Shown piece after piece: positions 12,221 to 15,099 of a stretch of DNA of 64,000 nt. The DNA is from Lautropia mirabilis (GTDB lineage Bacteria; Pseudomonadota; Gammaproteobacteria; Burkholderiales; Burkholderiaceae_B), in the NCBI GenBank assembly GCA_945876565.1, contig CAMCOS010000004.1, positions 62,001-126,000 on the forward strand. Direction: 5' to 3'. Made by a program: the position numbers and the translations under genes. Position 1 is the first letter of the stretch, and each line of letters begins with the position of its first letter. The notes beneath the pieces were generated by a model that did not search any database, was not told the DNA's origin, and saw nothing but the letters and a program-made list of their open reading frames with translations.

Positions 12221-13970
<1,750 letters not shown>

Positions 13971-13987
13971 GCTTCAGCCAATGTCAA

Positions 13988-14001
13988 TCCCTACCTAGGG
14001 A
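13988..14001 (+). promoter_or_regulatory. Palindrome 1 before the LuxR-type gene (candidate operator)
   Basis: TCCCTA-CC-TAGGGA: perfect 6-bp arms around a 2-bp centre, 81 bp before the start codon. Short spacing between arms is more like a dimeric protein-binding site than an RNA hairpin. The half-site TACC.. recalls the TACYNMT-type heptamers of NarL/FixJ-family proteins, so autoregulation by the adjacent gene is possible. Confidence 0.4.
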
Positions 14002-14009
14002 AAGCCCGA

Positions 14010-14030
14010 CTGTCAGATTTGACAGCTTTT
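14010..14030 (+). terminator. Hairpin with short T-run after panC (or LexA-like operator)
   Basis: CTGTCA-GATT-TGACAG followed by CTTTT. The 6-bp stem and four T's could end the scpA-panC transcript, but the T-run is weak. The same bases also fit CTGT-N8-ACAG, the outer consensus of a LexA box, so an SOS operator for the downstream gene is an alternative reading. Confidence 0.4.
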
Positions 14031-14056
14031 GCTGCTTGCCCAGGTTTGAGAGACTG

Positions 14057-14074
14057 CCAAACGTTTTAGTTTGG
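14057..14074 (+). promoter_or_regulatory. Hairpin covering the ribosome-binding site of the LuxR-type gene
   Basis: CCAAAC-GTTTTA-GTTTGG forms a perfect 6-bp stem whose last two G's are the first bases of the GGAGG Shine-Dalgarno (14073-14077) of the gene starting at 14082. Folding would partly block translation initiation. Pairing is seen; translational control is inferred. Confidence 0.4.
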
Positions 14075-14081
14075 AGGCAGC

Positions 14082-14423
14082 ATGCGACAGGAAAAAATGA
14101 TTGATGGTCTGGGCTGGGATGGCTTGACCAAACGAGAGCGTGAGATGCTCTACCCGGTGACTGACGGCAAGGCCAACAAGTTGATCGCCATGGAACTTGG
14201 CATCTCCACCCGGACGGTTGAGTCGCATCGCTCCCGAATATTTCGAAAAATGGGGGTAGACAACGCGGTGCAACTGGCCCGCGCCATCTATGGAGATCCT
14301 GATCTAGCCGATCAAATGCGCACTGGCAAAGCCCTAAACGTCACTGACCCGCGACTTAATTACAAGACGGGGCGGCGACCCCGTCGAGCTCAGCAATCGG
14401 ATCAAGATCGGGCTGACGGTTAA
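14082..14423 (+). CDS. Orphan LuxR/FixJ-type HTH DNA-binding protein
   Basis: A 113-residue protein made of little more than a LuxR-family helix-turn-helix (about 13-70: LTKREREMLYPVTDGKANK, then MELGISTRTVESHRSRIF and KMGVDNAVQLAR). It has no receiver or autoinducer domain, so it is not a classical response regulator; no partner kinase is adjacent. The C-terminal 35 residues are Arg/Asp-rich and unlike the family. The last 68 bp overlap the convergent lipoprotein gene. Three palindromes lie in its 111-bp leader, including one over the ribosome-binding site. Target genes are unknown; the family call is firm. Confidence 0.85.
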   Translation: MRQEKMIDGLGWDGLTKREREMLYPVTDGKANKLIAMELGISTRTVESHRSRIFRKMGVDNAVQLARAIYGDPDLADQMRTGKALNVTDPRLNYKTGRRPRRAQQSDQDRADG

Positions 14424-15099
14424 GGGTGTAATTCAGGTTCGGCGTCGTGCCATCAATGCTGCGCAAACGTAAAACCTCGGCTGAGGTCATGATCATTTCG
14501 GCACGTAAGTTCTTGCTCGCGTCCATCAGCATGATTCGAGGCTGGCGCATTTGCATGGCGTGCCAGCAGCCCTGCATGGTTTGGCCCTTGCCACTGGCTT
14601 GCTGGTTCTCGAGGTAAGTGACCCGAGCTCGCCAGCGACCATTCGGCGCAAGCGTTAACGTGACTTGCTGAGCCGTGCAGCGCATGTCCCGATGAAAGCA
14701 GGGTAGCGTCCCAAAAAATGTCTCGGGTTCGGGGATCAGGGCGTTTTGTCCAGGCGCCTCGTCTTGCTGGATTTCTTTTTCTAGCTCGGCCTGCCCGGCA
14801 GGCGTCAAACCGTCAGCTTGTGGGGCCTGCGCCACTTGCGTGGGCTGGGCTTGACTTGCCTGGTTCGATGGGCCTGGGCGCAGCTTGATCTGGATCTGCG
14901 ATGGCGCCGTCAATGTCTGTCTGGTCACGCCGCCTTCGGCGAACTGGATCGCATCTTGCGTAGAACTGGCTGGCGGCGGATTGTAGTAGCCAGGCTGACT
15001 GGTCTGTGCACAGCCTGCCAGAGCCAATGTGGCAGCAGCGATACCCACGAGGGTGGGCAGTCTACAAAACGACTTAGCGAAATGGTTTTGAGTACCCAT
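14356..15099 (-). CDS. NlpE-like lipoprotein
   Basis: A 247-residue predicted lipoprotein: basic N-terminus, hydrophobic stretch and lipobox LALAGC with Cys30. Residues 31-120 are a Gln/Pro/Ala-rich linker. Residues 127-225 resemble the N-terminal domain of NlpE (copper/adhesion-sensing outer-membrane lipoprotein): GTLPC, TLTLAPNGRW, a following Tyr, GCWH and a beta strand ending in IML. The NlpE CxxC is expanded to Cys134-x6-Cys141, with a further Cys178. Possible envelope stress or metal-sensing role by analogy only. The 3' end overlaps the LuxR-type gene; the gene is divergent from the prepilin peptidase. Confidence 0.7.
   Translation of the reverse strand: MGTQNHFAKSFCRLPTLVGIAAATLALAGCAQTSQPGYYNPPPASSTQDAIQFAEGGVTRQTLTAPSQIQIKLRPGPSNQASQAQPTQVAQAPQADGLTPAGQAELEKEIQQDEAPGQNALIPEPETFFGTLPCFHRDMRCTAQQVTLTLAPNGRWRARVTYLENQQASGKGQTMQGCWHAMQMRQPRIMLMDASKNLRAEMIMTSAEVLRLRSIDGTTPNLNYTLNRQPDLDPIAELDGVAAPSCN

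Follow-up and report, generated by a model that had tools for sequence, protein, structure and literature searches.

The sensor-less LuxR-type regulator gene downstream of panC in Lautropia mirabilis is preceded by a 16-bp near-palindrome and a weak extended -10 which, held at fixed spacing, form a predicted promoter unit that accompanies the regulator throughout its taxonomic family and, in the genomes scanned, is present essentially nowhere else. With moderate confidence, and from the promoter geometry and the distribution of the site, the product is interpreted as a dedicated regulator that probably activates its own gene and is controlled mainly by this autoregulation. The region is located in a stretch of 64,000 nucleotides (the window) and contains the following features:

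13128..13970, plus strand: panC, encoding pantoate--beta-alanine ligase, the upstream neighbour (Pfam; TIGR00018 above cut-off).
13982..14001, plus strand: upstream element TGTCAATCCCTACCTAGGGA, which contains palindrome 1 and is conserved as GTCAA-N4-6-ACYTAGGG.
14010..14025, plus strand: conserved dyad CTGTCAGATTTGACAG (palindrome 2), a predicted operator centred at about -43 to -44 (leader comparison, pattern scans).
14047..14055, plus strand: predicted extended -10, TGA-GAGACT, 24 nt past the dyad and without a -35; its family form is TGN-CAGAMT.
14054..14080, plus strand: inverted repeat across the Shine-Dalgarno (SD) sequence (palindrome 3), whose 5' arm overlaps the -10 and is mostly upstream of the predicted transcription start site (TSS).
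14082..14423, plus strand: luxR-type HTH-only regulator gene, 113 amino acids (Pfam GerE, AlphaFold2, family orthologues).
14356..15099, minus strand: conserved convergent lipoprotein gene, a conserved neighbour without a Pfam or NCBIfam family.

The interval given in the preliminary description starts at 13971, the first base past the panC stop, and the regulator ORF itself starts at 14082. Its product shows a GerE/LuxR HTH as the sole recognisable domain (residues 14-67; Pfam, 9.4e-21) and, with 73.6 bits against PF00196 (gathering cut-off 23.5), is a member of the GerE/LuxR-type HTH family. The NCBIfam full-length regulators, among which MctR and FixJ are the closest models, align via the HTH domain only and with scores far under their cut-offs. 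The AlphaFold2 model shows a four-helix HTH and one low-confidence helix, with helices spanning residues 17-81, and both tails (residues 1-9 and 83-113) are disordered with pLDDT <50. By structure comparison, this fold resembles the output domains of LiaR, VraR, NarL, DosR and FixJ. A receiver domain with a phosphorylatable Asp is absent, since Pfam gives GerE alone in the 113 amino acids and residues 1-9 are disordered; an autoinducer-binding domain is absent in both Pfam and NCBIfam, and the protein contains no cysteine. Pfam and AlphaFold2 thus confirm the HTH-only protein without sensor domain that had been proposed from the sequence, and the regulator is a sensor-less NarL/FixJ-class DNA-binding protein with a GerE/LuxR-type HTH. 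The term orphan, also used for it, fits the lack of a sensor domain but not the gene, which is ancient and syntenic across the family.

Orthologues of the regulator are present in 101 of the 151 family genomes (E<=1e-12), in the gene order scpA, panC, luxR and, convergent, the lipoprotein gene, so that the regulator is an old, family-wide syntenic gene. In the reduced genomes checked (G015, of 0.8 Mb, and G031, of 1.7 Mb) panC is kept and the regulator is missing, and the best matches listed beyond the family come mainly from the HTH domains of larger regulators. Genus g67 (L104, L120, L147, L149 and L114) shows the regulator gene inverted, about 6-16 kb from panC and near tctC/tctB, with the dyad and the -10 retained. 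In L104 and L149 the regulator is located between tctC and tctB, genes of a tripartite tricarboxylate transporter, and its promoter faces tctB, a possible lead to a regulator target. At its 3' end the lipoprotein gene shares 68 bp with the regulator ORF, and a terminator-like hairpin of this gene (14385-14366, minus strand) falls within the regulator coding sequence. Throughout the family the lipoprotein gene remains next to the regulator; its product (14356-15099) matches neither a Pfam nor an NCBIfam family and, as far as known, it is a neighbour outside the regulator's circuit. No description of the regulator gene was found in the literature searched, and the regulator is a well-conserved, undescribed example of a familiar regulator kind.

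The 111-bp leader shows the three inverted repeats previously noted: repeat 1, TCCCTA-CC-TAGGGA, at 13988-14001; repeat 2, CTGTCA-GATT-TGACAG, at 14010-14025; and repeat 3, CTGCC..GGCAG, at 14054-14080 around the SD GGAGG (14073-14077). Perfect repeats with 6-bp arms and loops of 0-8 occur in the window at an average of 0.36 per 111 bp, compared with three in the leader, and at least three were counted in 32 (1.6%) of 2000 randomly placed stretches of that length. By count alone the leader is only modestly unusual, and conservation therefore has to separate the repeats. Only repeat 2 is conserved as such across the family; repeat 1 is not kept as a palindrome, its left arm being lost, and the form of repeat 3 varies. 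A scan of 13850-14250 against Rfam 15 gave no match to a leader RNA family at E<=1.

Most of the leaders compared by eye show CTGTCAGATTTGACAG or CTGTAAGAANTGACAG at the position of repeat 2. Used as a blind pattern, CTGTMAGANNTGACAG matched 45 of the 151 family genomes against one match of the reversed control, and its sites are mostly just upstream of the regulator orthologue, a position at which it is seen in about 40 sampled species. At 40 loci chosen by the dyad alone, NAGAMT is found 23 nt (19 loci) or 24 nt (19 loci) after the dyad, 38 of 40 in all, and other offsets are seen once. Since some lineages (L099, L105, L107 and L119) have TATAAT at that offset, the hexamer was identified as the -10. 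A -35 is lacking at 16-18 bp from it (the best matches average about 3/6). Given the usual distance from -10 to TSS, the dyad centre is near -43 to -44, and the dyad is predicted to sit at the class II activator position, replacing the -35. At the level of sequence, the region thus has the marks of a class II activator-dependent promoter: a dyad near -42, a fixed -10 spacing and no -35.

The combined pattern CTGTN8ACAG-N20/21-TGNNAGAMT gives 43 matches in the 151 family genomes, 42 of them before the regulator gene (some loci checked directly, the remainder assigned by coordinates against orthologue positions), and none in the reversed control. In 241 non-family genomes the same pattern gives three chance-like matches, none near the regulator gene. 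The L. mirabilis genome contains a single dyad site at <=2 mismatches, and its weaker dyad sites all lack a correctly spaced -10; six congeners show weak dyad matches. Other genomes contain further perfect dyads (L154-L163), which precede unrelated genes and show no consistent -10. The proposed regulon marker TCCCTACCTAGGGA did not serve as such, with one occurrence in the genome, and a regulon search of the same genome with dyad 2 and TCCCTACCTAGGGA gave nothing further above background.

The dyad remains near-palindromic despite substitutions, as in CTAACAAATTTGTTAG, CTATTACCGCTAATAG, CTGCTAGTTCTAGCAG and CTACCAGAATTGGTAG, and several lineages (L007, L119, L125 and L144) show matched changes in both arms. 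Arm pairing is 270 against 258+-4.8 in column-shuffled sets and was reached in 53 of 5000 shuffles (p about 0.01), a value that is indicative only, the sequences being related. In some lineages, such as L014, L026, L097, L100, L116 and L134, the dyad is too degenerate to call. In a close relative (G007, L164), an insertion of roughly 440 bp separates the -10 from the gene, with both ends kept.

Palindrome 1 is not conserved as a palindrome, its left arm TCCCTA being usually TACGTA or another sequence, but its right half belongs to a conserved, promoter-private element. The form TGTCAA-N4/5-ACYTAGGG is found in the leaders of the genus and its sister genus, and is more degenerate in L009/L010. 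A scan of 16 genomes gave 10 instances of GTCAA-N4-6-ACYTAGGG, every one at the regulator promoter. Its CCTAGG centre is 21 bp upstream of the dyad centre; in the genus and sister genus this element, two helical turns away, is probably an additional protein site.

In the preferred reading, the dyad, centred at about -43, would be a class II activator operator, and its dedicated binder would be the regulator's own product as a dimer, which best accounts for a near-symmetric site that is private to the gene and moves with it. Positive autoregulation would result, with the protein level replacing a sensor as the control variable, and leakage or panC read-through would start protein accumulation. 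Activation is deduced from the promoter geometry, and a dyad near -43 could be compatible with repression too. In such a case of negative autoregulation, which is unlikely, the dimer would keep RNA polymerase off the -35 region, holding levels constant: the dyad overlaps the -35 place, self-repression is common, and the small LuxR-type regulator PedR represses its own operon (PMC13421787). However, a weak extended-TG -10 without a -35 at 16-18 bp suits an activator-dependent promoter, and the spacing from dyad to -10 is fixed to 1 bp family-wide, as contact with polymerase would require. Precedent for activation by isolated output domains is mixed: the C-terminal domains of FixJ and SsrB, when isolated, bind DNA and stimulate transcription, and those of NarL and DevR bind, but with poor or no activation (PMC3029386). 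Binding of the dyad by another dedicated regulator is improbable. The recognition-helix residues are nearly invariant among orthologues and so offer no protein-site co-variation that would point to the binder, but the site is private to the regulator gene in the scanned genomes, where a multi-target regulator would leave more sites, and the dyad stays with the gene after inversion.

Three further readings concern the repeats themselves. As a LexA/SOS box, the dyad has the formal CTGT-N8-ACAG match already noted in the preliminary description (three in the window against 1.1 expected), and lexA is present in the genome. Against it, the genome's own boxes, CTGTATAGATATACAG at lexA and CTGGTTATTTGTACAG at recA, have a core different from that of the dyad; the inner A6/T11 is kept in 44 of 48 distinct dyads, compared with 30 of 48 for the T4/A13 pair, and variants like CTAACA..TGTTAG lose CTGT/ACAG. 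The match is thus formal, its outer positions not being all conserved, and the unlike core and the 30 of 48 at positions 4/13 led to the rejection of this reading, which is extremely improbable. Equally improbable is an intrinsic terminator of panC formed by dyad 2 and the following CTTTT: a pattern scan of the window labels dyad 2 terminator-like, but the stem has 6 pairs only, three of them G-C, the T-run is missing in most relatives, and the dyad accompanies the regulator where panC is far off, so that this candidate was also discarded as a formal match. Layered transcriptional and translational control, with a functional SD-sequestering hairpin, had been proposed for the leader and is doubtful. 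Most of 15 leaders permit an SD-covering stem, with differing sequences and some compensating changes (L004, L005 and L008), and the hairpin could act on panC read-through RNA. However, the SD is not predicted to be clearly less accessible than in shuffled leaders (fractions 0.03-0.81), and the 5' arm begins inside the -10 hexamer, so that mRNA from the predicted promoter (TSS at about 14061-14063) should lack the hairpin; in RNA from this start the SD is more open in most leaders. The proposal is left unsupported, and the SD hairpin could at most mute panC read-through RNA.

The predicted self-activating arrangement resembles several known systems in part. In LuxR/lux-box promoters, which are of the activator type and are bound by a LuxR-type HTH, an operator dyad near -42.5 replaces the -35. 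The likeness lies in the dyad in the -35 place and the LuxR-type HTH; the regulator described here differs in having neither an autoinducer-binding domain nor a synthase, and in its box sequence. FixJ/NarL-type response regulators share the GerE HTH, and the fold matches the output domains of LiaR, NarL, DosR and FixJ, but they have a receiver domain, which this regulator lacks, and no partner kinase is apparent next to the gene. GerE of Bacillus subtilis, whose fold has been solved (1fse), is likewise a LuxR-type protein consisting of the HTH alone. It differs in its sporulation context, which is missing here, and in its site and neighbours. The cyanobacterial PedR belongs to the same HTH-only size class and controls its own gene. 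The regulator is not a member of its family (NF052366; 37.3 bits against a cut-off of 120) and lacks the cysteine of the PedR thiol switch (Cys80); PedR has several targets besides repressing its own operon (PMC13421787), whereas self-activation is predicted here.

Regulator, predicted operator and promoter geometry are defined together in this family as one protein and one 16-bp site. A speculative reading, rather unlikely as it stands, is that of a closed-loop regulator with its high-affinity operator only at its own promoter family-wide, which would work as a stand-alone bistable or timing switch with output via weak or half sites or via protein contacts. If its own promoter is the only strong site, the purpose of a sensor-less, self-activating regulator would come into question, as would the reason why it stays beside panC across the family.
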